Shown here: positions 4,042 to 23,926 of the stretch, piece by piece
How positions within the stretch are numbered: the stretch's first letter is position 1
Layout of the letters: each line of letters begins with the position of its first letter
NCBI GenBank assembly: GCA_024278345.1
Contig: JAJRTK010000546.1
Coordinates: forward strand, 1 to 23,926
DNA length: 23,926 nucleotides
Source: a bacterium
GTDB lineage: Bacteria; CSSED10-310; JAJRTK01
Direction of reading: 5' to 3'
Notes under the pieces: model-generated
What the model was told of the DNA's origin: nothing
Databases searched by the model: none
Seen by the model: only the letters and a program-made list of their open reading frames with translations
Made by a program: the position numbers and the translations under genes

Positions 4042-4209
4042 GCCCATCATCATGCCCCCGGGTGGGGTTTCCTCCGTTTTTTTCAGACGGGCCGAGGCTC
4101 GGCCATCGGTGGCCGCTTTGGCGGTTCTCGCTGCGCCGGGCACCGTTGACTAACGCTGGTGGGGGCGTTATGGGGCGGCTTTGAATGGCCAAGGGGGACT
4201 GTTTTGTCC
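4042..4209. other. Leader region of the addB-addA gene
   Basis: Two hairpins overlap at 4091-4115 (GCCGAGGCTCGGC, then CGGCCA-TCGG-TGGCCG). TTGACT at 4146-4151 with TATGGG 17 bp downstream is a weak promoter candidate. If it is used, the GTG at 4159 would lie too far upstream to be the start, which favours 4204 (TTG) or 4210 (ATG) after AAGGGGG at 4190-4196. Confidence 0.3.
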
Positions 4210-7200
4210 ATGGAAACGAAAATTTGGGGAGAAGAACTTGGGATTCTCGGCCTGGATTGGGCAGGGGAGGAACTGATCTGGATCGTAGTGCCGACGAAAC
4301 GACGGCAGACCTTGATCCAACGGGAACTTCGTTCAGCGGGACTCCGATGGCGGATTCGGGTTCTCTTGCAGGTGGGTGTGGACCGCCTCTTGGGTGAGGC
4401 ACTGGAGCTTCGTGGCAAACCGCTGGAAAACGACGAGAGCCACGGCCTGATCCAGTGGATCCTGGGGAATCGCCGGGAGGAGCTTGGCTCGCTGAATGCG
4501 TTGATTCCGGCGACGCAGGCCGAGGATCGCGTCGTTCCCGGGGTGGCGGTTCGGCTGCGGGAAATGCTGGACAACCTGCGGCTCCAAGAGTCGGAGCACA
4601 TGCTCCTCAACGCCGCCGTAGACGAACAGGGAGAACCGCTTCCCGGGGCGGAGCTCAATCGAGAGCTCCATCGGATGCTCCAGTATTACGAGGCAACCCT
4701 GGATCAGATGGAGTGGGAGGATGGCCCGAGCCTCCGGCGCAAGGTGGCCGAGGCCTTGGAAGCGGATCGGCGGCCCGAGGAATTGCCTGCGGCAATCATC
4801 CTGGATCAGCCCACCTATTTCTATCCGTTGGAGCAGAGGCTTTGGGGGGCTTTGGCGCGGATGGTGCCAATTCATTTGGTGGTGGACCAGGAAATCTTGG
4901 AGTTTTCCCCGTGTGACGGGGCCAATGAAGAATGTCCGCCGTCGCGGCAGCACGTGGCCGGGCTGGCGGCTTGGATTTCCGGTCTGCGGGACCGCCTGGA
5001 GGGGATCTATCCGGTCCGATCCAAGAATCCCGGGGGAAGCGTCGTTGTCCGGGCACTCTTCGACGGGCGGATTCCGAGAAAGATGGATGCCGAGTCCATC
5101 GTGGTGTGGCGTGAGCACGACCGGCGGCGGGAAGTTGAGCGGTTGGTGAGAACGGTGAAGCGGGGCATCCTGGAAGGGCGGTTCATGCCGCAGGACGTCC
5201 AGATCGTGGCGCCGCGTCTGGACCCTTACCTGCCGCTTCTGCGGCGGGGCTTCGACGAGGCTGGGGTTCCGTGCAGTCTGCCCAAGGGGGAGCCGCTGTG
5301 GGGATCGGCGCCGGCTACGATTCTTCGCTCACTCCTTCGGTGGATCGAGACCGGGGCTTCCGCGGAAATGGTGGCTTACCTTGGGAACCCTGCTGTGCGG
5401 CGGCCCTCGTGTAATGGGGACACGGTTCGGGATTTCCTTCGCCGGTTCGAGGAAAGGCTGCCCGCCTTCCCACGGGGGCTTGTGAAAGAGAACGTCTGGG
5501 AAGAGCGGTTGGCCAGGGTGCCACGAAAGCTCCAGCCATTCCGGCTAGACGAGATCGCCCGCCAAGCGCGGGTTCACGGTGGCCCGGACATGGAGGCTGA
5601 CTGGATCGCGCCTCTTTTACGCCACGTGAGGGGCCGTCTGGCGGACGAGAAGCTCCGGCCCGAGTCCGCCGGGCGGCTTCTGGAGGTGGTGGGCGATCTG
5701 GCGGTGCTGGAGGCGACCTGGGTCGATCTTGTGGATCTTCGGCGGGCGGACCTGGATCTTCTGGAGGGTCTACGGATGCTCCAGAAGCGGATTTCCTCGG
5801 ATCAGGCGATGCAGGGCATCCTGCGGCAGAGTCTTCGAGAGCGAACGGCGGGGCGGCGGTTCCTGGCGGAGGTTGCCGCCGCCGACCGGGCACTGGGCGA
5901 AATCCGGCACCTCTTCCAGCAGGTGGAGAAGCTCATCCGGTTCCGAAGCCAAGAGCTTTCCATGGAGGAGGACAAGGGCTTCAATGTCTTGCGGAACCTG
6001 CTTCTTGAGCGGCTTCGTGGGGGGCATCTGGGGCGGAAGCCGGTTCGCGGCGCGGTGATGGCGTCGGAGTTCTTGGATACTCGGACCGAGAGGTACGAGG
6101 CTCTCTTCGTGCTGGGTCTGATCCAGCGGGAGTTTCCACCCTTGGACGACGAGAGCTATCTTCTTCCGGAAGGGCTCCCGTCGGCGCTTGCGCGGCCGCT
6201 GGATCCGGCCGACGAAGCACGTTACCTGCTGGGCCGCCTTCTTCGGCAGAGCTCTCTGGTGGTGATCTCGGCACCGCGGCATACGGTGGATGGCCCCGTG
6301 GAACCAGCGACCCTGGTGGGAGACCTGGAGCGCTGGGGCGAAGGTCCTCGGATGGGGCTCGGAAACCTGGCCCCGCCGCCGGACAACTGGGCGGCGAACT
6401 TGGACGAGCTGGCGCGACGGGATCCGGACCATCCGCTGTTGCCCACGGAGCTCAAGGATTCCGTCAAGCGAGGGCAACTGGTCCTTGGCGAGCGTTCCTC
6501 TTCCCGGCTAACCGCTTTTGACGGCCTGATTTCCAGCCATCCGCTCCCGGGGAAGTGGGAAAAGCCCACGACGGTCTCGAAGCTGGAGACCTTCCTGGAC
6601 TGCCCGCACCGCTACTTTTTCCGGCATCTGCTGGATCTTCGGCCACTGGCGGAGATCCCGTCGGAACTGGAGGAAAACCGCATCGGCAGCCTTGTCCACA
6701 AGATCCTTGCACGCTTTTTCGGGGAGGCTTCCCACTGGCACGGACGGCGAATCACGGAGGAAAGTTTTGGCGCGGCCTGCGCCGCGATGCTGGAGTTGGG
6801 GAAGGAACTCCTGGAGGAAAGCGGTGTGGCGTGGGACTCGAGCCCGGTGTTGCAAGCACAGCGGCTGGAAATCCTTCGTGGCCTCGAGTCGCCGGAGTCC
6901 GGGGGAAAACGAGGCTACCTGGTGGCCGCCCTGATCTGCCAGCGAGACCTTCTGGAAACGGTTCCTCGCTGGTGCGAGCTGGAATTCGGCGTGGGCAAGG
7001 TCAAGGCCTTGGAGGTTTCTGAGTCGCTCCGCATCCGAGGGACGATTGATCGGGTGGATATCACCCAGGATGAGCTCAAGATCTGGGACTACAAGACGGG
7101 CGGACACAAGGAAGCCAAGGATGTGGAGGCGGGCCGCTCGCTCCAGATCCCGCTCTATGCCGAGGCGGCACGCCGCAACTTCGACCCGGCGGGACAACGG

Positions 7201-10200
7201 CGCGTCCGAGGTGGAATCATCGCCCTCAAGAACCGGAATGAAACCCAGAGCCTGGAAAACCAGAAGACGGGGCTCCTGGTGGAGCACCTGGCCATCCGCA
7301 AGGGGAAAAACCGGCGCTGGGAATTCGCCCCCTCGGCGGCGGAGGAGCGGATGGAGAAGGCGCTCCAACAAGTCCTGGAGATTGACCGCCGAATTCGGGA
7401 GGGAGAGTTTCACCAGATTGAGGATACGCCGGAGGCTTTGTGCGATCGGTGCGAATTCAACGCCATCTGTTTCCGCGACCTCGCCGGACTGCGGGACAAG
7501 CTTGGGGAAGCCGACGGACAGGAGGGTGAGGTCCGGGGGCGCGGGATGGCCGGGGGCGCGGCCCCGGGGGCCGCTGGGAACGCCGACGACGCGGTCTTTG
7601 GGTTGGAAGCCGGAAGAGCGGTACATGGGGCGGACAGCGGGTCGTGCGGGGAACTCGTGGGATACCCGAACGGACCTCAGCCACCAGGAAAACGTTGGGA
7701 AGGCTGTGGACCCGTGGACTCGAAGGGGGAAATCGATCAAGGAGGCTCCACGAGCGAGGGTTCGGTTGCCTTGGAGCTTTCGGAGGAACAGGCGAGGGCA
7801 TCGGACATCGCGGAGAGCGTGGTACTCAAGGCGGGAGCGGGATCGGGAAAGACGTTCGTTCTGAAGACGCGGGTCAGCCGGTTGGTCCGGAGGGGAGAGC
7901 CCGTGGATTCCATGCTGGCCATTACGTTCACCCGCAAGGCCGCGGAGGAGATCCGGGGGCGCATCGCCCGGAGTCTCGGGGAGGCGCTGGAACGGGGAGA
8001 GCTCGATGGGAGCGTGCTCACGGAGGCGGATCGGTCGCGGATCGTCGAGGCGCGGGCGGGCTTGCCGCGAGGAACGTTTACCACCATACACGGCCTTTGC
8101 CAGCAGATCCTGCGGATGGACCCGAGGCTTTCCCAGGTGGATGATCGGGCCAAGGTCCTGGGGGAGACGCACCAGGAATCGCTGCTCCAGGAGACTTTGC
8201 AAGAAGTTTTTTCGGGAGAGAGTCCCTGCGCGGAAAACGTCTTTCGCCTGCTTTCGGCGGGGATTCCTCTCCGACGGCTGGAGGTGAATCTGAAGAGGCT
8301 GGTGAAGGATTCCCGGAGACGGAGGGAGCTGGAGCGGAACATGACAGGTCGCGACTACGCCCAGTGGCGGGAACTGCTCCAGGAGATCTTCGCGGAGCGG
8401 TTCGTCCAGGCGGCAAGGCGGATCCAACCGCACCTGGAAGCCTGGTTCCGGGATTTTTCGCCGTGGCGGGTCACGCCTGACACCCAGGAGCGCTTGAACA
8501 AGGACGCCGTAAAGCTCCGCGACTTCCTGGAGCTCGAATCCCGGGTCCGGAGACTGCTGAAAGAGGTGGGCGACCAGGGATGGGCGAACCTGGCAGCCTC
8601 GTTGGAGGAGCTTCGCACCTTCCTGAAGGAGAACCGGAAGTCCCAGCTAGCGCGGAGCAGGAAGAATCCCAGAAACTACTGGAAGGAATGCCTGGAGATC
8701 CTGGATCCAAAGCATTTTCCTCCCACGAGCCTCGACGATGCTCGCGAGGAGAAGGGGGTCGAGCTGGCGCGAAATCTTTGTCTAGTGGCCCGGGAAGCCG
8801 GCGCGGTCTACGAGAAGATCAAGCGGGAGCGGAATGTGGTGGATCACGACGATCAACTGGAGCTCGCGTACCAGGTAGTGTGCGGTCGCCAGGCCGACCC
8901 GGGACGTCAGAAGCGGCAGGAGCGGTTGTTGGCTCGCCTTCGCCAAAAGTTCCGGCATATCCTTGTGGACGAGTTCCAGGACACGGATCCGCGGCAGTGG
9001 GAGCTCATCCGGGCCATCGTGGATCCCAGCCGCGTGGCGAGGGGAGAAGCGACGGTCTTCATCGTCGGCGACGTGAAACAGGCAATCTACGGGTTTCGAG
9101 GGGGAGACAACCGGGTTTTCGCGGCGGCGGAGCGCGAACTCTTGCGGGCGGGGACCCAGTCCCGGGTTCTTCGGGAAAACTACCGGTCGAGTCCTCTTCT
9201 AATCCAGACGGTGAACGACCTTTTCGAGAAGTTGTTCTCATCGGAGTTCACCGGAGGCGACCCGGCGGCGCAGCCGCTGGTGGAGACCGCGGTGCCTCCC
9301 GAATCCATGAGCTCACCGGCGGCGATGAAGATGTCGTCGGAGAGACCCACCTCGGTCTCGCTCCTGGTGACGCCCTACGACAAGGCGGACCGTGGGAAGC
9401 GCCGGGAAGCGCGCCTTCTTTCCCTGTTCATCCGCGCTGTCCTGGACGGGCGGATTCCCCGGCATGACGATCTCCCCGGGGAGAATCCTCCATCGGTGGC
9501 CCTGCTCTGCCGCAAAGTCACGGAGCTCATGCTCATGGCCGCGGCCCTGGATCGGGTGGGCGTTCGGTACACCATCAGCCACGGCTCCGGCTTTTTCCGG
9601 TTGCCCGAGGTCCGGATCCTGGAAAACGTTCTTTGCGCCATCGCCGACAGGCGGAATGCCATCGCTCTCGTGGGTACCCTCCGGGGACCTCTCATCGGCT
9701 TCAGCGACCGGGACCTGGCCGACGCCAGGGCCGATCTGGGCCAAGGCTGGTGCCGGGCCATCTGGGCAGGTCGCTGGCAAGATCCACGGGGCCGACGGGC
9801 TCACGAGATTCTCTCCCGCTGGCGCCGGGCAGCGACGGTCTGCAGCACGTCGGCGCTTCTGGCCCTCATCGTGGCCGATTCGGGGCTCAAGGCCATCTAC
9901 GAAACGTCGGGGCGCCCAGAGTCCGTGATCAACCTGGAAAAGCTCATCGAACTCGTCTATGCCGAAGAATGCGGAGCTGGAGCGACGGGGCTCGTCGAGC
10001 TCCTGGAGTGGTTCGACCTCCAGCGGGAAGCCTTCGAAGGACCCGCCATGCCGCCGGGAGAGCAGGCTCCCGTAGGCCTCATGACCATCCATGGAGCCAA
10101 GGGGCTGGAGTTTCCTATGGTGATCCTTCCCTTTCTGGGTGGCTCCCTTTACGCTGAGCGCGACTTCGTGACCGCGGAAGTTCAAACATTGGGGGGCGAG

Positions 10201-11541
10201 ATCCTTGGTATCTGCGTGGAAGATCCCCAAATCGGCTACAAGAGGAAGCCGACCTTTCTCAGTGGCCTGGCCGTCCACCACCAGAGGGAGCGGGGCGCCA
10301 GCGAAGAAAAACGCCTTTTCTATGTCGCCTGCACCAGGGCACGACGCCACCTGGTCTTTTCTTTCACGGAAACAAGGAACCTTTGGGAAGATCAGAAAAA
10401 AGCCGCCTCCATGAGCGAAGAAGACCGGCGGGAAGAGGTCCGGAAGAAAGCCAATGGCCAAAACTGGCTCATCCATCTTTTGGAGGGCAAAAACAAGCCG
10501 CCTACCGAGCTTCGCTTGGCGGGAAGGGATGGCAGGATCACCACCATTCCCGTCGTGGGTCCCGACAGCCTTCCTGAGACACCAGTCCGTCCGCCACCAG
10601 GGAGAGAGCGGCTCAACCTGGATCCCGACACCAGCGGTCTCTACCAAGAGACCGGCGGCAAACATGTGGTGGCTGCCTCCCAGCTCCATCTCCTGGAGCG
10701 CTGCCCTTTAGCCTATTTTCTGGGCCGAATCGCAGGCCTGGAAACCGCCCCAGCCCCTTTCGCACCGCTCTCTGATTCCCAGCCCACGGCCATCGAGGTG
10801 GGCCTTGCCCTCCACGCTGTCCTGGAGGCCTCCGCCGGTAGACTCACGGCCCTGCCCCAGATGACCTCCGCCGACATGCTGCAGGCGGTGAGGAAACTGC
10901 TGGTCCAGGACAGCGACGAAGAACCTTCGCCACAGCTAGTCCGGGAGGTGGTCCTTCATCTCTGCCGCCTTGCGGCCTTCCCCCAATGGCAAGAAGTCCT
11001 GGCCACGGCTCCTCAATTCGAGGTTCCCCTAGAAACGACCCTCTCTCAAGCACTCTTGGAGGGGTCCATCGACTGCCTCCAACGGAAACCGTCCCAAATG
11101 CCGCCCATGGTGAGGCCCCAAGATGGAGAAACCCTCCCCCTCTTCACAGGGCAACACCTTGAGGGGATCCTCCCCAAGAGCGGTTCAAACCTGGTCCTCC
11201 ACGACTTCAAGACCACCAGGCTCCGGAACACCACGCCGGAAGAAGCCGCCACGGCCCACGGCTACGACACCCAGCTTCGGGCCTACGCACTTGTTGCCGA
11301 AGCCATGGGCCTTGGGAAAGCAGCTGACGCCGTTCTGTGGTTCACGAGTCCGGGCGGAGGCCCCGTCCAGATCGACCTGGATGACGCCGGACAAATGACG
11401 ACTCGTCAGGTATTGAACCAGGCTGCGAAGCTCGCGGGAATGACCCTTGCCCAGGCAAGGGAACAGGCCCGCAAGGAGGAGTGCGGAGAGTGCCCCTTCG
11501 CCCGGATCTGCCCGGACGGTGCCCAGGAAGGGACCCACTGA
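4210..11541 (+). CDS. addB-addA: AddB-AddA fusion: single-chain ATP-dependent helicase-nuclease
   Basis: AddAB, the RecBCD counterpart, unwinds and resects DNA double-strand breaks for RecA loading. Here both subunits lie in one 2443-codon frame. Residues 1-1095 are AddB: a UvrD-like fold without a P-loop (VVPTKRRQTLIQREL), the GLIQREFP region near 632, then a PD-(D/E)XK nuclease with C798, H830, D947, D960-x-K962 and cluster cysteines C1078, C1081, C1087. A Gly/Ala/Pro-rich linker spans about 1098-1187. AddA follows, with Walker A GAGSGKT (K1214), DEFQDTD (1587), GDVKQAIYGFRGGD, ENYRSS, IHGAKGLEF (1961) and FYVACTRAR (2038). Its C-terminal nuclease has H2202, D2288, D2332-F-K2334, Q2355, Y2359 and cysteines C2165, C2425, C2428, C2434. 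Separate subunits are usually about 1170 and 1230 residues, so nothing is missing. The start could also be GTG 4159 or TTG 4204. Confidence 0.93.
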   Translation: METKIWGEELGILGLDWAGEELIWIVVPTKRRQTLIQRELRSAGLRWRIRVLLQVGVDRLLGEALELRGKPLENDESHGLIQWILGNRREELGSLNALIPATQAEDRVVPGVAVRLREMLDNLRLQESEHMLLNAAVDEQGEPLPGAELNRELHRMLQYYEATLDQMEWEDGPSLRRKVAEALEADRRPEELPAAIILDQPTYFYPLEQRLWGALARMVPIHLVVDQEILEFSPCDGANEECPPSRQHVAGLAAWISGLRDRLEGIYPVRSKNPGGSVVVRALFDGRIPRKMDAESIVVWREHDRRREVERLVRTVKRGILEGRFMPQDVQIVAPRLDPYLPLLRRGFDEAGVPCSLPKGEPLWGSAPATILRSLLRWIETGASAEMVAYLGNPAVRRPSCNGDTVRDFLRRFEERLPAFPRGLVKENVWEERLARVPRKLQPFRLDEIARQARVHGGPDMEADWIAPLLRHVRGRLADEKLRPESAGRLLEVVGDLAVLEATWVDLVDLRRADLDLLEGLRMLQKRISSDQAMQGILRQSLRERTAGRRFLAEVAAADRALGEIRHLFQQVEKLIRFRSQELSMEEDKGFNVLRNLLLERLRGGHLGRKPVRGAVMASEFLDTRTERYEALFVLGLIQREFPPLDDESYLLPEGLPSALARPLDPADEARYLLGRLLRQSSLVVISAPRHTVDGPVEPATLVGDLERWGEGPRMGLGNLAPPPDNWAANLDELARRDPDHPLLPTELKDSVKRGQLVLGERSSSRLTAFDGLISSHPLPGKWEKPTTVSKLETFLDCPHRYFFRHLLDLRPLAEIPSELEENRIGSLVHKILARFFGEASHWHGRRITEESFGAACAAMLELGKELLEESGVAWDSSPVLQAQRLEILRGLESPESGGKRGYLVAALICQRDLLETVPRWCELEFGVGKVKALEVSESLRIRGTIDRVDITQDELKIWDYKTGGHKEAKDVEAGRSLQIPLYAEAARRNFDPAGQRRVRGGIIALKNRNETQSLENQKTGLLVEHLAIRKGKNRRWEFAPSAAEERMEKALQQVLEIDRRIREGEFHQIEDTPEALCDRCEFNAICFRDLAGLRDKLGEADGQEGEVRGRGMAGGAAPGAAGNADDAVFGLEAGRAVHGADSGSCGELVGYPNGPQPPGKRWEGCGPVDSKGEIDQGGSTSEGSVALELSEEQARASDIAESVVLKAGAGSGKTFVLKTRVSRLVRRGEPVDSMLAITFTRKAAEEIRGRIARSLGEALERGELDGSVLTEADRSRIVEARAGLPRGTFTTIHGLCQQILRMDPRLSQVDDRAKVLGETHQESLLQETLQEVFSGESPCAENVFRLLSAGIPLRRLEVNLKRLVKDSRRRRELERNMTGRDYAQWRELLQEIFAERFVQAARRIQPHLEAWFRDFSPWRVTPDTQERLNKDAVKLRDFLELESRVRRLLKEVGDQGWANLAASLEELRTFLKENRKSQLARSRKNPRNYWKECLEILDPKHFPPTSLDDAREEKGVELARNLCLVAREAGAVYEKIKRERNVVDHDDQLELAYQVVCGRQADPGRQKRQERLLARLRQKFRHILVDEFQDTDPRQWELIRAIVDPSRVARGEATVFIVGDVKQAIYGFRGGDNRVFAAAERELLRAGTQSRVLRENYRSSPLLIQTVNDLFEKLFSSEFTGGDPAAQPLVETAVPPESMSSPAAMKMSSERPTSVSLLVTPYDKADRGKRREARLLSLFIRAVLDGRIPRHDDLPGENPPSVALLCRKVTELMLMAAALDRVGVRYTISHGSGFFRLPEVRILENVLCAIADRRNAIALVGTLRGPLIGFSDRDLADARADLGQGWCRAIWAGRWQDPRGRRAHEILSRWRRAATVCSTSALLALIVADSGLKAIYETSGRPESVINLEKLIELVYAEECGAGATGLVELLEWFDLQREAFEGPAMPPGEQAPVGLMTIHGAKGLEFPMVILPFLGGSLYAERDFVTAEVQTLGGEILGICVEDPQIGYKRKPTFLSGLAVHHQRERGASEEKRLFYVACTRARRHLVFSFTETRNLWEDQKKAASMSEEDRREEVRKKANGQNWLIHLLEGKNKPPTELRLAGRDGRITTIPVVGPDSLPETPVRPPPGRERLNLDPDTSGLYQETGGKHVVAASQLHLLERCPLAYFLGRIAGLETAPAPFAPLSDSQPTAIEVGLALHAVLEASAGRLTALPQMTSADMLQAVRKLLVQDSDEEPSPQLVREVVLHLCRLAAFPQWQEVLATAPQFEVPLETTLSQALLEGSIDCLQRKPSQMPPMVRPQDGETLPLFTGQHLEGILPKSGSNLVLHDFKTTRLRNTTPEEAATAHGYDTQLRAYALVAEAMGLGKAADAVLWFTSPGGGPVQIDLDDAGQMTTRQVLNQAAKLAGMTLAQAREQARKEECGECPFARICPDGAQEGTH
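7501..7770 (+). other. Linker-coding segment between AddB and AddA, possible former intergenic DNA
   Basis: The encoded segment is low complexity (GRGMAGGAAPGAAGNADDA and similar) and matches neither subunit. Its DNA holds a strong hairpin, CCGGGG (7550-7555) with CCCCGG (7562-7567), similar in style to the third hairpin of element 1. An AAGGAGG sequence at 7739-7745 precedes the AddA domain, with no normally spaced in-frame start behind it; the nearest is TTG at 7771. I infer that this was once an intergenic region with the addA ribosome binding site, later read through in frame. Confidence 0.4.
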
Positions 11542-13124: not shown

Positions 13125-16100
13125 ATGCCGTGGGCAAATTTTGAGTGTGGTCATCCATCGCGGAACGCTCTTCCAGTCACCATCGGGATAGCGCTCTTGT
13201 TTTGTTGTCTACTTTTCTCCGTTGAAGCAACCGCGGCTCTTCCTTACACCGAGAACTTCAGCGACACGACGCTTCGTGACAGCGGCGCAACGACCGCTAA
13301 CTGGTCCACGAAGGAACAGGCAGTTCTGTTGGCCTGGCGGGAGAAGCAGTTTGGGGTTTTCGGCGCGGGGCTTGCGGGGACCGACATCACGGTCGAGGCC
13401 GACAGCACGACGTCGGTGGCGCTGGGAGACGTGGACGGTGATGGGGACCTTGACCTGGTGGCGGGGAGTTCGAGTGGTGCAAACCGGCTCTATCTGAACA
13501 ACGGCACGGCGGCGCCGTGGAGCGGCGTGACGGGCAGTGACATTACGACCGATGTTCTTGGTAGTTCGGCTGTGGCTCTGGGGGACGTGGATGGCGATGG
13601 TGACCTGGATCTTGTCGTGGGGAATTCCGGCAATCCCAACCGGCTCTACTTGAACAACGGTACGGCGGCGCCGTGGAGTGGGGTCACGGGAAGCGACATC
13701 ACGACTGATACCGACAACACAAACTCAGTGGCGTTGGCGGACGTGGATGGTGATGGCGACCTGGATTTGCTCTCCGGAAATGCGGGCTTGAACCGGCTCT
13801 ACCTGAACAACGGAAGCACAGCCCCTTGGAGCGGCGTGGCCGGTAGCGACGTTACCACCGATGCCCATGACACGAGGTCGGTGTCGCTGGGAGATGCGGA
13901 TGACGATGGCGACGTGGATCTTGTGGTGGGAAACTATGGGCAGACGAACCGGGTCTACCTGAACAACGGAACCGCCGATCCTTGGGGCGGCGTAACTGGT
14001 AGCGACATCTCCGCGGACACAAACGGAACCACATCACTGGGCTTGTGGGATGTGGATGGAGATGGAGACATCGATCTTGTTGTGGGAAACGATCCGGAGG
14101 CCAATCGGCTCTACCTGAACAACGGAACGGCTGACCCGTGGAATGGGGTCACGGGAAGCAACATCACGGCTGATACCGCCAACACCATGTCGATGGTTAT
14201 GGGGGACGTGGATGGCGACGGTGACCTCGATTTCATCGCGGGAAATGTTGGCCTGAATCGTCTCTATTTGAACAACGGGACGGCCGATCCATGGGGTGGT
14301 GTCACGGGCAGCGACATTTCGGCTGACGCCCACACGACCTATTCCGTGGCTCTGGAAGATGTGGACGGGGACGGCAATCTCGATCTTGTGGCGGGAAACT
14401 CGAACCAGGCGAACCGCCTCTACCTGAACGACGGGGTTGCCAACCCCTGGAATGGCGTCACTGGCAGCGACATCACGGCTGACACTAACATTTCGCAATC
14501 CGTTGTTCTGGGAGACGTAGATGGCGATGGCGACCTTGACCTCGTCGCGGGAAACGACAACGAGACCAACAGGCTCTACCTGAACAACGGGACCGCGGAC
14601 CCGTGGGGCGGGGTTACGGGCATTGACATCACGGGGGATGCCCAGATGACCCGCTCGGTGGCCCTGGGGGACGTTGATGGCGACGGCGACCTCGACCTCG
14701 TCGTGGGAAACAGCGGGGCAGAAAACCGGCTCTACTTGAACAACGGGACGGCGGACCCGTGGAACGGGGTTACCGGCAGCAGTATCACCACGGACATCCA
14801 TACGACCTACTCGGTGGTCTTGGGAGACGTGGATAGCGACGGGGATCTTGACGTCATTGTGGGGAACAACGGGGCAAAAAACCGTCTCTACCTGAACAAC
14901 GGGACCACCAATCCATGGAGTGGGGTTTCCGGCAGCGACATCACATTGGATACCGATCTCACGACGGAGGTTGTCCTGGGCGACGTAGACGGCGATGGGG
15001 ACCTCGACCTCGTCGTGGGAAACAGCGGGGCAGAAAACCGGCTCTACTTGAACAACGGGACGACGGACCCGTGGAACGGGGTTTCCAGCAGCACGATCTC
15101 GAACGATTTGGACACCACTACCTCGGTGGCCCTGGGGGACGTGGACGACGACGGCGATCTCGACCTCGTCACGGGGAATGACGGCCCCTCGCTCACCCAC
15201 CGCCTCTATTTGAACAACGGGACGGCGGCGCCCTGGAGCGGCGTTGCGGGCAGCAGTATTACATCGGATGCCGTGGTTACTCGATCGGTGGCTCTGGCAG
15301 ACGTAGACGGCGATGGCAGCCTCGACCTCATCGCGGGAAACGACTCGGCGCCCAACCGGCTCTACCTGAACAACGGAACAGCCAGCCCTTGGGAGGGTGT
15401 CACCGGTAGCGACATTGCGGCCACCACGAGCGTTACCGCCTCGGTGGCCCTGGGCGATGTGGACGGTGATGGCGACATTGACGTGGTTACGGGAAATACC
15501 GGGCAAACAAACCGGCTCAGTCTGAACGGGGGGAGGCCAGATCCGTGGAGCGGGGTGAAGGGTAGCGGCATCAATACTCAGGGAGACGGTACTTACTCCG
15601 TAGCGCTGGGCGACGTAGACGGTGACGGCGATCTTGACTTGGTCTCGGGAAACGACGCGATGGCCAACGCCCTCTACCTCAACAACGGGACGGTCGATCC
15701 CTGGGCCGGTGTCGTCGGCAGCGACATCACCACCGACACTCAAAATACTTACTCGGTAGCCCTGGGTGACGTGGATGGCGACGGCGACTTGGACTTCGTC
15801 GCAGGAAATCAAAGCGCGAACCGGCTCTACCTGAACAATGGGACGAGCGACCCGTTCGGGGGAGTTACGGGCAGCGACATCACGACCGATGCCGCCACCA
15901 CCATCTCTGCGCACCTGGCGGACATGGACGGAGATGGCGACGTTGATTTCATCGCGGGGAATGGCGGTGTGCATCGGCTCTACCTGAACAACGGGTCTAG
16001 CGACCCGTTTGGCGGGGTTACGGGTAGCGACATCGGTGTCAGCGCGTCCCCCAACACGTCGATGGCTCTTGGGGACGTGGACGGCGATGGCGATCTTGAC

Positions 16101-19100
16101 ATCGTCGTTGGAACTGGCTTCGAGAATCAGCTTTTCCTGAACAATGGAACGTCAGATCCATTCAACGGAGTCGTGGCCAGCGATATCACCGCTGACACTG
16201 ACAGTACGGTTTCCGTGGCGCTGGGAGACGTGGATGGCGACGGCGACCTGGACATTGTGGCCGGAAACACTTCGGTCAACAGACTTTACCTGAACAATGG
16301 GGGAGACCCCTGGAACGGATTCGCGGCAGGCAGCGATATCACCAGCGACAGCGACAACACGAGATCGGTTGCCCTGGGCGACCTGGACCGTGACGGCGAT
16401 CTCGACCTCGTTGCGGTCAATGACAATGCAACTGACCGACTTTACCTGAACGATGGCACCACCAGCCCATTTGCCACGGTTGCCGGCATCGACATTTCGA
16501 GCGATGTCGATCACACCGAATCCGTGGCCCTCGGTGACGTGGACGGCGACGGCACGCTGGACATCGTGGCGGGAAACCGGCTCTCCACAGAGAGCGATCG
16601 CTTTTACAACAGGCCGCGATTCCACACGGCTCGAGGGCAGGCCACATCGTTGACGGTGGATGGGAATACCGTCACGAATGTGAAGCTTGATGCCACAACG
16701 TTACTACCCACAAATACTGCCATGAACTACTGGGCGAGCAATGACGGAGGAGCACGTTGGTATATGGTGCCAACCGGGCAATATTTCCCATTTTCCACAA
16801 CCGGCAGCGATCTTCGGTGGAAAGTGACGTTGCGCTCTCTTTCGCCTGTTCGGACGCCACGGATAGATCAGTTGATCCTCAGTACGGATGCCACGGCTCC
16901 CTCGGTCGGGACTGTCAACGACGGTAACGATCCAAATGCCGAAATCGATTACCAGGCCTCGACGACAACCATCCAGGGCAACTGGTCAGGATTTTCTGAT
17001 GGGGAGAGCGGCCTCGCCTCCTACGAGTGGGCCATTGGCACCACGGATGGTGGAATCAACGTCTTGGGCTGGACCGACGTGGGGATGGCCACGACGGCGA
17101 ACCAATCAGGTCTCGCCATGAGTCATGGCCAGATTTACTACGTCTCTGTCCGTGCCATGGACGCCGTGGCCAACGTGAGCCTCGTGGCCACGTCCGACGG
17201 GGTAACGGTGGACACGACCGGCCCATCGCCAGGTACCGTCCTCGATGGATCGGGGGCGGATATCGGTTTTCAGGCATCGGCAACGACCATCCAGGCCAAC
17301 TGGTCCGGATTCGCGGATTCCATCAGTGGTATCACGTCGTATGAGTGGGCCATCGGGACCACGGCCGGGGGCGCCGACATCTTGGCCTGGGCAAACGTCG
17401 GTATGACCACGGGCGCTAGCCAATCGGGGCTGAGCCTGACGGAGGGGCAAACTTACTACGTTTCCGTGCGAGGCATAGACGCCGTGAGCAACGTGGGGGC
17501 GATGGCCACGTCTGATGGCGTCACCGTCGATTCGGTGGCACCAGCGCCAGGCACCGTCAGCGATGGTTCGGGAGCCGACATCGATTACCAGACCTCAACG
17601 ACGACGATCCAGGCCAACTGGGCCGGATTCACCGATACTGGCAGTGGCGTCGCCTCTTACGAATGGGCCATCGGCACCAACTCCGGAGGGTTCGACGTCT
17701 TGGGCTGGACCAACGTGGGCAACGTCTCCGGAGCGACCAAATCTGGGCTTTCTCTGGCCCAAAGCCAAGTTTACTACGTCTCCGTCCGGGCTATCGACGC
17801 CGTGGACCAGATAGGAGCCGTCGCCACATCCGATGGAGTAGCCGTCGATACGACCGGGCCTGTCCCCTGGAAAGTGTTCGACGGTTCGGGCGCCGATATT
17901 GACTTTCAAGGATCTTCGACCACCATGGAAGCCAACTGGTCCAGTTTTTCCGATGCCGGCAGCGGCATCGCCTCTTACGAATTGGCCATTGGCACCGCCC
18001 AAGACCCTACTAATATCATGGGCTGGACCGACGTTGGCAACGTCTCAAGTTTCAGCCAGCCGGGGCTGACGCTAGGGGAGGGCACCACTTATTTCGCCAG
18101 CGTTCGCGGCGTGGACTCCCTGGGAAATGTGGGTAATCCAGCCAGCTCTGACGGCGTCACCATCGACACGACCGCCCCAGTGGCCGGAGCTGTGTTCGAC
18201 GGTGACACCGTCGATGCCGACTACCAGGGCTCCACCACCATCCTCAAGGCCAACTGGTCCGGCTTCTCCGACTCCGGCAGCGGCATCACCTCGTACCAGT
18301 GGGCCATCGGCACGAGTCCTGGCGGAACGCAGGTACAGGGCTACACGGATGTAGGTAACGTCACTTTGGGCAAAACTACGAATCTGACCCTCGACAACGG
18401 CAAAACCTATATCGTCAGCGTCCGGGCCATGGACGGTGCCGGAAACCAAGGATCCATCGCTTTTTCCGATGGGATCATGGTGGATGCGGAACCGCCGGGA
18501 GGTGGAACGGTCAACGACGGCCCCGGCAACGACATCGACGCCCAAACCTCCGTGACCGTCCTCCAGGCAAACTGGCCGAGCTTCTCTGACTCCGGCAGCG
18601 GGATCGCCAGTTACGAGTGGGCCATTGGCATCACGCCTGGAGGCGCGGAGATCATGGGGTGGAGCAACTCTGGCAACGCCACGGAAGCCTCCAAATCGAA
18701 CCTCGCACTGGGAGTCGGCACGACCTATTACGCCAGTGTCCGGGTTACCGATAACGTGGGCAACGTCTCGCCGGTGGCAGTCTCCGACGGGGTGACCATC
18801 CAGGAGGGAGCGTGGCCCTTTGCGGTACCGGAAGAGTTTCGGGTGACCCAGGACATATCTACGGCCATCCTAAGCTGGCACTCGCCGTTGAATCCGGACG
18901 GCAGCCCCGATCTCCGGCCAGGCGTGTACCGGATTTACCGGCGACAACAGCCACCAACGGGCGCAACCTTCGACGCACTCGTAGACATGCCGGTGAGCCC
19001 CGGTACTGAGTTCAGCTACAACGATGCCCTCTCCCCCCTTGACCCCAACGGCGCTTATGACTACAAGGTTGCGGCCCTGTACAACGGCGAAGAGGGGCCC

Positions 19101-20312
19101 CCCACGGCTGCGGAACCGGCAGGTGGAATCCGACCGAACCAAGGAGCCGGAGGCGCCGGCAATGCCCGGAAGGCTCCATCGGGCAGGGGCACGGCAAACC
19201 AGGTCGCATTTCCCGTCTACCTGAGCGGATCCGGCTTGTTGATGCAGGGACTGGACATTCGTCTTCGGTTCGATCCCCAGATGCTCACACCCAAAGATGT
19301 GGTGCCGAGCATTCTAGGCCAGGGCCTGACCCTGACCTTCAACGAAACAGAGCCGGGTCTTCTGGCCATCGCCGGTTTAGGCAGCCTGACCGACCCCGTG
19401 GAGGTATACGCTGGCGGGCGCGTCTTGGACGTGCGGTTCGACGTGACGCCGGGCACCGCGATCAATGCTGAGAGCAGCCTAATCTTCGACCTTTACGAGG
19501 TTTCCGCCATCGTCGAGGGGCAACTCAGGACAGTGCCTATCGATGCGGCACCGGCAACGTTCCGGGCTACGAACCGTTATCGGCGAGGCGACGTCACCGG
19601 TGATGAAAATGTCCTCGCTAGCGATGCACTTTGGGCCCTCTATCTGGCAACCGGAAAGGGGATCCCCACCCTGGACGAAGCCATCGCCGGGGACGTGGAT
19701 CTAGACGGCTCGTTCACAGCCGGGGATGCGGTGTCGATTCTGCGTCTTGCCGTTGGGCTGGAGGTGAACCCACCGCCGAAAAGAATGCAGGAGACCAGCG
19801 CTGAAGCCTTGGCCCACAACCTCAGTGTAGGTCGCGTGATCTGGGCCGGGGAGACGGAGCTAGACGTGCCAATTGTCTTGGACGAAGGCAGCGGGGTCGC
19901 GGGAATCCAGTTGGGCGTTTCCTGGGTGCCGGGGGCAGTGGAAATCATTGGTGTTGCGACGGACGGGCGTTTCCAGGCGGCGGAACGCCTGTATGGCTCT
20001 GGCTTTGAACTGGCGCTGTCGGCGGCGGAAAGCCTACCCGCCGGGCCGGCACAAGTGGCAACTCTTCGGCTCTGGGTGAACGAGCAAAAGCTGATGGACC
20101 AGAAACGAGTCGTTCTAAAAGTGGGCTCGCTGCACTTGTACGGCCCTTACGGTGGGGAGCTTTCGTGGACCCGGACGGTGCTTGGCGGCAACGGAATGGT
20201 TGCGACCCCGGGCGGTGCGGTTCCAACTGGAAACGAGCACCTCCTGATCCTTGTCGCGCTCCTGGTAATGGGATCATGGCTGGTGGCGCGAAGGCGAAAG
20301 CAAAGAAGCTGA
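13125..20312 (+). CDS. Giant secreted FG-GAP/Fn3 protein with cohesin-like and dockerin domains and C-terminal anchor
   Basis: The 2395-residue protein starts from ATG 13125, six bases after AAGGAG. Residues 1-37 are a signal peptide (cleavage near ATA-ALPY). Residues about 82-1163 hold 21 FG-GAP/VCBS repeats of about 52 residues with calcium loops DVDGDGDLD and the phrase NRLYLNN. A domain of about 90 residues containing NYWASNDGGARWY follows. Residues about 1256-1892 are six Fn3-like repeats of about 106 residues (ASYEWAIGTT, YYVSVRAMDA, SDGVTVDTT). A further Fn3 domain lies at about 1897-1996. The tail holds a cohesin-like domain (about 2024-2150), a type I dockerin (about 2152-2213) with loops DVTGDENVLASD and DVDLDGSFTAGD, and a second cohesin-like region (about 2228-2350). 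The end, PTGNEHLLILVALLVMGSW plus RRRKQRS, resembles an IPTL/PEP-CTERM sorting signal. It is probably a calcium-binding surface adhesin or scaffold; its ligand is unknown. Confidence 0.88.
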   Translation: MPWANFECGHPSRNALPVTIGIALLFCCLLFSVEATAALPYTENFSDTTLRDSGATTANWSTKEQAVLLAWREKQFGVFGAGLAGTDITVEADSTTSVALGDVDGDGDLDLVAGSSSGANRLYLNNGTAAPWSGVTGSDITTDVLGSSAVALGDVDGDGDLDLVVGNSGNPNRLYLNNGTAAPWSGVTGSDITTDTDNTNSVALADVDGDGDLDLLSGNAGLNRLYLNNGSTAPWSGVAGSDVTTDAHDTRSVSLGDADDDGDVDLVVGNYGQTNRVYLNNGTADPWGGVTGSDISADTNGTTSLGLWDVDGDGDIDLVVGNDPEANRLYLNNGTADPWNGVTGSNITADTANTMSMVMGDVDGDGDLDFIAGNVGLNRLYLNNGTADPWGGVTGSDISADAHTTYSVALEDVDGDGNLDLVAGNSNQANRLYLNDGVANPWNGVTGSDITADTNISQSVVLGDVDGDGDLDLVAGNDNETNRLYLNNGTADPWGGVTGIDITGDAQMTRSVALGDVDGDGDLDLVVGNSGAENRLYLNNGTADPWNGVTGSSITTDIHTTYSVVLGDVDSDGDLDVIVGNNGAKNRLYLNNGTTNPWSGVSGSDITLDTDLTTEVVLGDVDGDGDLDLVVGNSGAENRLYLNNGTTDPWNGVSSSTISNDLDTTTSVALGDVDDDGDLDLVTGNDGPSLTHRLYLNNGTAAPWSGVAGSSITSDAVVTRSVALADVDGDGSLDLIAGNDSAPNRLYLNNGTASPWEGVTGSDIAATTSVTASVALGDVDGDGDIDVVTGNTGQTNRLSLNGGRPDPWSGVKGSGINTQGDGTYSVALGDVDGDGDLDLVSGNDAMANALYLNNGTVDPWAGVVGSDITTDTQNTYSVALGDVDGDGDLDFVAGNQSANRLYLNNGTSDPFGGVTGSDITTDAATTISAHLADMDGDGDVDFIAGNGGVHRLYLNNGSSDPFGGVTGSDIGVSASPNTSMALGDVDGDGDLDIVVGTGFENQLFLNNGTSDPFNGVVASDITADTDSTVSVALGDVDGDGDLDIVAGNTSVNRLYLNNGGDPWNGFAAGSDITSDSDNTRSVALGDLDRDGDLDLVAVNDNATDRLYLNDGTTSPFATVAGIDISSDVDHTESVALGDVDGDGTLDIVAGNRLSTESDRFYNRPRFHTARGQATSLTVDGNTVTNVKLDATTLLPTNTAMNYWASNDGGARWYMVPTGQYFPFSTTGSDLRWKVTLRSLSPVRTPRIDQLILSTDATAPSVGTVNDGNDPNAEIDYQASTTTIQGNWSGFSDGESGLASYEWAIGTTDGGINVLGWTDVGMATTANQSGLAMSHGQIYYVSVRAMDAVANVSLVATSDGVTVDTTGPSPGTVLDGSGADIGFQASATTIQANWSGFADSISGITSYEWAIGTTAGGADILAWANVGMTTGASQSGLSLTEGQTYYVSVRGIDAVSNVGAMATSDGVTVDSVAPAPGTVSDGSGADIDYQTSTTTIQANWAGFTDTGSGVASYEWAIGTNSGGFDVLGWTNVGNVSGATKSGLSLAQSQVYYVSVRAIDAVDQIGAVATSDGVAVDTTGPVPWKVFDGSGADIDFQGSSTTMEANWSSFSDAGSGIASYELAIGTAQDPTNIMGWTDVGNVSSFSQPGLTLGEGTTYFASVRGVDSLGNVGNPASSDGVTIDTTAPVAGAVFDGDTVDADYQGSTTILKANWSGFSDSGSGITSYQWAIGTSPGGTQVQGYTDVGNVTLGKTTNLTLDNGKTYIVSVRAMDGAGNQGSIAFSDGIMVDAEPPGGGTVNDGPGNDIDAQTSVTVLQANWPSFSDSGSGIASYEWAIGITPGGAEIMGWSNSGNATEASKSNLALGVGTTYYASVRVTDNVGNVSPVAVSDGVTIQEGAWPFAVPEEFRVTQDISTAILSWHSPLNPDGSPDLRPGVYRIYRRQQPPTGATFDALVDMPVSPGTEFSYNDALSPLDPNGAYDYKVAALYNGEEGPPTAAEPAGGIRPNQGAGGAGNARKAPSGRGTANQVAFPVYLSGSGLLMQGLDIRLRFDPQMLTPKDVVPSILGQGLTLTFNETEPGLLAIAGLGSLTDPVEVYAGGRVLDVRFDVTPGTAINAESSLIFDLYEVSAIVEGQLRTVPIDAAPATFRATNRYRRGDVTGDENVLASDALWALYLATGKGIPTLDEAIAGDVDLDGSFTAGDAVSILRLAVGLEVNPPPKRMQETSAEALAHNLSVGRVIWAGETELDVPIVLDEGSGVAGIQLGVSWVPGAVEIIGVATDGRFQAAERLYGSGFELALSAAESLPAGPAQVATLRLWVNEQKLMDQKRVVLKVGSLHLYGPYGGELSWTRTVLGGNGMVATPGGAVPTGNEHLLILVALLVMGSWLVARRRKQRS
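13370..16612 (+). repeat. 21 tandem FG-GAP/VCBS coding repeats, about 156 bp each
   Basis: The unit encodes a calcium-binding loop of the DxDGDGxxD type followed by GN...NRLYLNNGT..PW.GV.GSDIT. I counted 21 units from the DVDGDGDLD-like loops. Most units are 52 codons; a few differ by one or two. Divergence between units is moderate, except units 9 and 11, which share 84 bp with one mismatch (14688-14771 and 15000-15083). Confidence 0.9.
16891..18800 (+). repeat. Six tandem Fn3-like coding repeats, about 318 bp each
   Basis: The marker NWSGFSD or a variant recurs at about 16980, 17298, 17615, 17935, 18251 and 18571, a period close to 106 codons. Each unit contains SGIASYEWAIGTT, a central GWTDVG and YYVSVRAMDA followed by SDGVTVDTTGP. 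These are likely extended stalk domains between the propeller region and the cell-anchoring tail. Confidence 0.85.
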
Positions 20313-23651: not shown

Positions 23652-23926
23652 GGGACCTATCAGATCCGGTTGACAACTTCACCGCTGGGGCGGGCCTCCT
23701 TCCCGGCTCCGTGCAACCCGGAGGGCCCTACACCGGCAAGATGCCGGTGCCACCGTTTCGGCGAAGGGCCCTACACCGGCAAGATGCCGGTGCCACCGTT
23801 TCGGCGGAGGGCCCTACACCGGCAAGATGCCGGTGCCACCGTTTCGGCGAAGGGCCCTACACCGGCAAGATGCCGGTGCCACCGTTTCGGCGGAGGGCCC
23901 TACACCGGCAAGATGCCGGTGCCACC
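23652..23926 (+). mobile_element. Element 2 copy 2, expanded, runs off the window
   Basis: The first 25 bases (GGGACCTATCAGATCCGG and 7 more) are identical to the right end of copy 1 read in reverse (21246-21270). The palindrome CACCGGCA-AGA-TGCCGGTG follows in the same order as in copy 1, but here in several tandem units. It abuts copy D of element 1, so it may have inserted into it. The far end and any target duplication lie outside the window. Confidence 0.65.
23723..23926 (+). repeat. 43-bp tandem repeats built on a palindrome
   Basis: GGGCCCTAC recurs at 23723, 23766, 23809, 23852 and 23895, each exactly 43 bp apart, giving four full units and a fifth cut by the window end. Units are near identical and alternate in their last bases (GCGAA, GCGGA, GCGAA, GCGGA), so the real period is 86 bp, as expected if a two-unit block was duplicated. 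Each unit contains the 8-bp stem palindrome CACCGGCA-AGA-TGCCGGTG. Confidence 0.95.

Follow-up and report, generated by a model that had tools for sequence, protein, structure and literature searches.

The window, by which we mean the whole 23,926-nucleotide stretch of DNA analysed here, comes from an uncultured bacterium and comprises an entire contig (G000:C494) of a 6.06 Mb assembly of 550 contigs that is 87.9% complete and most likely a metagenome-assembled genome. The sole match to rsmA found in the source genome sits within the window, which argues against the window being a stray contig. On the forward strand a single open frame, addBA, reads from its ATG to its stop through 2443 codons with no internal stop (Table 1); the same frame is open already from a GTG at 4159, and the product has a computed mass of about 273 kDa. 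The window also holds a 2395-aa protein (13125-20312) with about 19 FG-GAP repeats, which a 156-bp-period array encodes, and a possible membrane anchor at its end, as well as a nearly perfect 43-bp tandem repeat (23722-23926, 4.8 copies) that runs off the contig end.

Table 1. Features of the addBA locus, in window positions
Feature	Positions	Strand	Basis
addBA single open frame, AddB-AddA protein, 2443 aa	4210..11541	+	Translation; homologous fused frames elsewhere
AddB helicase-like (Chi-scanner-type) N-terminal region	4267..6549	+	AlphaFold and Foldseek to B. subtilis AddB chains
AddB nuclease, PD-(D/E)XK, Fe-S-type cysteines	6571..7470	+	Pfam; conserved residues
Interdomain linker, 94 residues, Gly/Ala/Asp/Glu/Pro-rich	7489..7770	+	AICFRDLAG to LELSEEQ
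AAGGAGG (7739-7745), then in-frame ACG (7750-7752), at AddA boundary	7739..7752	+	Direct reading
AddA SF1 UvrD-type helicase motor	7771..10371	+	Pfam; motif table; PDB 3u44_A
AddA C-terminal nuclease with four-Cys signature	10687..11538	+	Catalytic residues; fold matches

The original prediction placed a complete AddB and then a complete AddA in one uninterrupted frame of 2443 residues; translation of 4210-11541 reproduces that length, and the open frame together with Pfam, NCBIfam and PDB matches bears out the arrangement. In Pfam the product matches PDDEXK_1 (E 1.5e-56, 788-1087), UvrD-helicase (E 1.9e-47, 1193-1642) and UvrD_C (E 6e-21), in NCBIfam it matches AddA models down to E 1e-72 and AddB models at E 7e-14 and 2e-10, and a profile of the fused family compared with the PDB recovers 3u44_A (AddA, 4.5e-77) and 3u44_B (AddB, 5.5e-18). 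The scores lie far under the NCBIfam AddA and AddB equivalog cut-offs, which are clade-specific (e.g., 245.6 as compared to 707.65 bits), so the protein is divergent.

An AlphaFold model of the AddB half (mean pLDDT 76, from 39 sequences comprising the window and related loci) has B. subtilis AddB as its first Foldseek match over the whole length (4ceh_B, 3u4q_B; E ~7e-30, TM ~0.6), ranked above RecC and AdnA. No P-loop was seen on direct reading of the AddB N-terminus. The AddB nuclease has H830, E923, D947, D960, K962, Q979 and Y983, and all of its Fe-S-type cysteines (798, 1078, 1081 and 1087) are present; a PD-(D/E)XK nuclease with Fe-S cysteines at this end is found in many AddB proteins. 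In the AddA half the motor motifs are intact (I, GAGSGKT, 1209-1215; II, DEFQD, 1587-1591; III, GD..Q..Y..RG; VI, YVACTR), and the nuclease has H2202, E2271, D2288, D2332, K2334, Q2355 and Y2359 together with a Cas4/AddB-like four-Cys pattern (C2165, C2425, C2428, C2434). The CxxC...C tail of this pattern is uncommon in AddA, occurring in only 11 of 162 AddA-type ORF records (duplicates included), and is present too in the unfused sister lineage described below. A model of the AddA nuclease (pLDDT 74) matches AdnA first, and also AddA and Cas4-family nucleases. The catalytic residues of both nucleases and of the motor are thus intact in the window. Among the features that define AddAB, the window has the AddB-type helicase-like half with its C-terminal Fe-S-type nuclease, the AddA-type SF1 helicase (motifs I, II, III and VI) and the PD-(D/E)XK nuclease at the AddA end; in place of two subunits from two genes, it has one frame.

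The low-complexity linker of about 90 residues that had been predicted is likewise found: measured from the last conserved AddB residues (AICFRDLAG) to the AddA Q-motif (LELSEEQ), it is 94 residues long, hydrophilic and 81% disorder-promoting. Its GC content is 0.69. An open linker by itself is weak evidence, because 8% of mononucleotide shuffles and 23% of dinucleotide shuffles are equally open, and the occurrence of the same fusion in relatives is the stronger evidence. Three-base periodicity across the linker (p ~0.004 overall) comes from the first half, with none in the second, and some 55 residues of the linker, at roughly nt 7525-7750, lack an equivalent in any of the other fusions, all of them from other phyla. 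Several candidates for the linker were rejected: a hidden RNA gene (no Rfam matches, and folding no better than that of shuffles), a second gene (the minus-strand ORF at 7457-7801 is low-complexity) and a repeat or mobile element (there is one copy in the genome).

We note that the AAGGAGG and the ACG at 7750, as read from the sequence, are possibly a relic of a separate AddA start, or a weak internal start. The frame might then be fused and AddA nevertheless be made also, or mainly, from within it, at ACG 7750 or TTG 7771, in which case the cell would hold free AddA together with AddB or the fusion. AAGGAGG occurs three times on the plus strand of the 23.9 kb, with one copy 4 nt ahead of the in-frame ACG, and the lack of codon periodicity in the second half of the linker is in keeping with such a start. 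ACG is, however, rare as a start codon and the spacing here is short, TTG 7771 lies 25 nt from AAGGAGG, and with no stop after AddB ribosomes would still read through; on balance we consider internal initiation improbable.

Alternatively, two genes might seem fused through a sequencing or assembly error, such as a lost stop or an indel, where a high GC content happens to leave the frame open. The sequence comes from a metagenome assembly, the linker has the composition and chance openness given above, and a TGA lies near 7524 in the third frame, so that an indel at about 7490-7525 would introduce a stop. Since the fusion could be an error in a single metagenome assembly, other fusions were sought. 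A survey of 290 genomes gave two further long AddA frames, in G182 and G163. The former was rejected as a fusion, being a high-GC open frame (local GC ~0.7) with AddB in a different frame, and is itself an artefact of the kind in question; long frames in G217, G124, G279 and G144 were also rejected, AddB being a separate ORF in each. The frame in G163, by comparison, is a fusion of 2125 aa at GC 0.47, with about 30% identity to the window across both halves.

Among 45 genomes examined from the phylum of G163, hereafter the second phylum, both halves were found in single frames in G292 (1826 aa, starting at the contig start), G293 (2042 aa), G295 (1941 aa) and G297 (1559 aa; L080:5238-9914), the last with its AddB part shortened to about 650 residues. 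The GC content of the five second-phylum fusions is 0.42-0.61. A further fusion, in the order AddB-AddA, was found in G203 (L184:2359-8358, G203:C151): it is 2000 aa long at GC 0.32, with the AddB cysteines and a 33-residue linker. At E 1e-30 no match was obtained in the other genomes of the nine examined from the phylum of G203. In total, fused AddB-AddA frames are thus present in seven genomes from three phyla, and homologues of the same fused architecture, the search for which had been proposed at the outset, are those of the five second-phylum genomes and of G203. A scan of contigs with the single window protein as query found nothing, and on plasmids the matches listed were of AddA type only, none covering 80% of the query.

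These relatives also bear on the suspicion, voiced with the original prediction, that an error at 7500-7770 hides a stop or frameshift. Chance error is a poor explanation, because homologous single frames occur in five genomes from a different phylum, most of them at GC 0.42-0.47, and another fusion lies at GC 0.32. No stop interrupts the coding frame of any linker among the other six fusions, five of which have 3-6 stops in at least one of the alternative frames. We therefore regard an artefactual joining as very unlikely.

The second-phylum fusions differ in their nucleases. All four relatives aligned retain the residues of the AddB nuclease and the key residues of the motor, and the AddA C-terminal nuclease is missing from all four checked (L064, L077, L078 and L079); all of the AddB Fe-S cysteines are preserved in G163 but only some of them in G292, G293 and G295. 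We also observed, on direct reading, galU-like genes adjoining the fusion in G163, G293, G295 and G297.

Unfused arrangements were also found. None of 80 loci in named genomes is fused, and in 47 of them AddB is an ORF of its own. Searching 382 genomes around G163 led to family f125, from a third phylum, an unfused lineage in which addB lies immediately upstream of addA as a separate gene. In G004 and G005, from the phylum of the window, addA and addB are separate neighbours of a different AddAB lineage. The original prediction had recognised that close relatives with two genes at this locus would speak against it; G004 and G005 are indeed unfused within the phylum, but their AddAB falls elsewhere in the tree, and the nearest relatives of the window protein are fused, next to the unfused third lineage.

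In an AddA tree that lacked the unfused third-phylum lineage, all six fused sequences, those of the second phylum and the window's own, formed one clade (99). With that lineage added, the six fused and two unfused sequences grouped together (100/100), and the fused G297 fell outside the unfused pair. A combined AddB and AddA tree under a mixture model again placed the six fused in one clade (84/80), beside the unfused third lineage, with the five of the second phylum at 100/99, the eight-row group at 100/100 and G203 outside that group. Alternatively, there may have been several independent fusions in the group, the one in the window having arisen apart from those of the second phylum; an AddB-only tree does set the window beside the unfused G264 and G127 (93/90), and its linker of 94 residues differs in length from the 32-42 residues of the second-phylum linkers. 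The AddB-only tree is, however, less reliable because of long branches, and the six fused form one clade in both the combined tree and the AddA tree made before the unfused lineage was added, so that we find independent origins within the group rather unlikely. The best reading of these trees, with moderate support, is a single fusion that occurred before the lineage of the window diverged from the second phylum. The fusion in G203 is probably a second, independent event, and the seven fused genomes probably derive from two fusion events.

AddAB-type enzymes, described as machines of two or three subunits, initiate DNA break repair in many bacteria. The closest likeness of the window is to AddAB/RexAB (B. 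subtilis AddAB, PDB 3U44, 4CEJ), with which it shares the two components and their internal domain order, namely an AddB half of helicase-like region and Fe-S nuclease and an AddA half of SF1 motor and nuclease, in AddAB from adjacent genes with addB first. It differs in having one chain with a linker instead of two subunits, an AddB without a visible P-loop and an AddA nuclease with a four-Cys signature of its own, and the four second-phylum fusions checked differ further in lacking the AddA nuclease. Mycobacterial AdnAB is likewise a two-nuclease helicase-nuclease, and AdnA is the first structural match of the window's AddA nuclease, but AdnAB consists of two separate chains and the AddB half of the window is closer to AddB than to AdnA. 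RecBCD has a comparable RecB-type motor with nuclease and RecC-type helicase-like scanner, and shares its nuclease count with the one-nuclease second-phylum fusions. It has, however, three chains including RecD, for which no recD-like neighbour was seen among the window genes scanned; its single nuclease is on the motor chain RecB, as compared to the scanner half in the reduced fusions, and its RecC is nuclease-dead, whereas the AddB nuclease active site of the window is intact.

The UvrD-Cas4-type fusions (PMC5704561) and the bacterial Dna2-like Bad (PMC7430649) likewise join a helicase and an Fe-S nuclease in one chain, but with one helicase unit and one nuclease and without the AddB scanner half. 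A defence-system reading was rejected, the PADLOC matches being to generic UvrD helicases (e.g., GajB) and unspecific. In the same genome as the window, a 316-aa PDDEXK_1 ORF lies directly upstream of a 1177-aa UvrD-type helicase (L172:3716-8261, G000:C30), possibly another helicase-nuclease pair. We found no published description of a fused AddAB in the accessible literature, and a prior mention is possible; the searched text of two comparative studies contains neither "fused" nor "fusion" (PMC1193525, PMC6452273). The window looks like a natural single-chain variant of AddAB and no new type of machine.

Judging from the sequence, it is likely that addBA codes for a natural single-chain AddAB, in the order AddB-linker-AddA, which arose by in-frame joining of adjacent genes and works much as AddAB does. 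Adjacency of addB and addA is the normal gene layout, and the two would have been joined in frame by loss of the addB stop, after which the fusion would have been retained through deep divergence. The AddA half would act as the ATP-driven 3'-5' motor and bear one nuclease, and scanning would fall to the helicase-like AddB half, which has an Fe-S nuclease. A flexible linker would presumably allow the halves to dock in cis as in the AddAB crystal structures, so that AddAB would be pre-assembled, folding in cis amounting to assembly. The single chain, if expressed uncut, would resect double-strand DNA ends, under Chi control if there is any; in AddAB, Chi scanning is done by the AddB helicase-like domain (PMC4824097). 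A fixed 1:1 ratio of the two halves would follow only if the chain stays uncut and there is no re-initiation.

The natural fusion suggests that two halves arranged as AddB-AddA can function within a single polypeptide, and it provides biochemical and structural work with an enzyme encoded by one gene. Genomes with the fusion would be overlooked by automatic rules that pair addA with addB. The relatives that lack the AddA nuclease or the AddB Fe-S cysteines represent a natural experiment on the role of each nuclease. Of the two strands, the 3'-ended one is assigned to the AddA nuclease and the 5'-ended one to the AddB nuclease; if that is correct, cutting by relatives that lack the AddA nuclease would be confined to the 5'-ended strand. 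More tentatively, and at somewhat less than even chances, we speculate that there is a conserved single-chain AddBA class in several phyla, in which covalent linkage took the place of subunit assembly and then permitted reductive loss, in one phylum, of the AddA nuclease and of AddB Fe-S cysteines. If so, the class would include a one-nuclease resection enzyme with its only nuclease on the scanner half.
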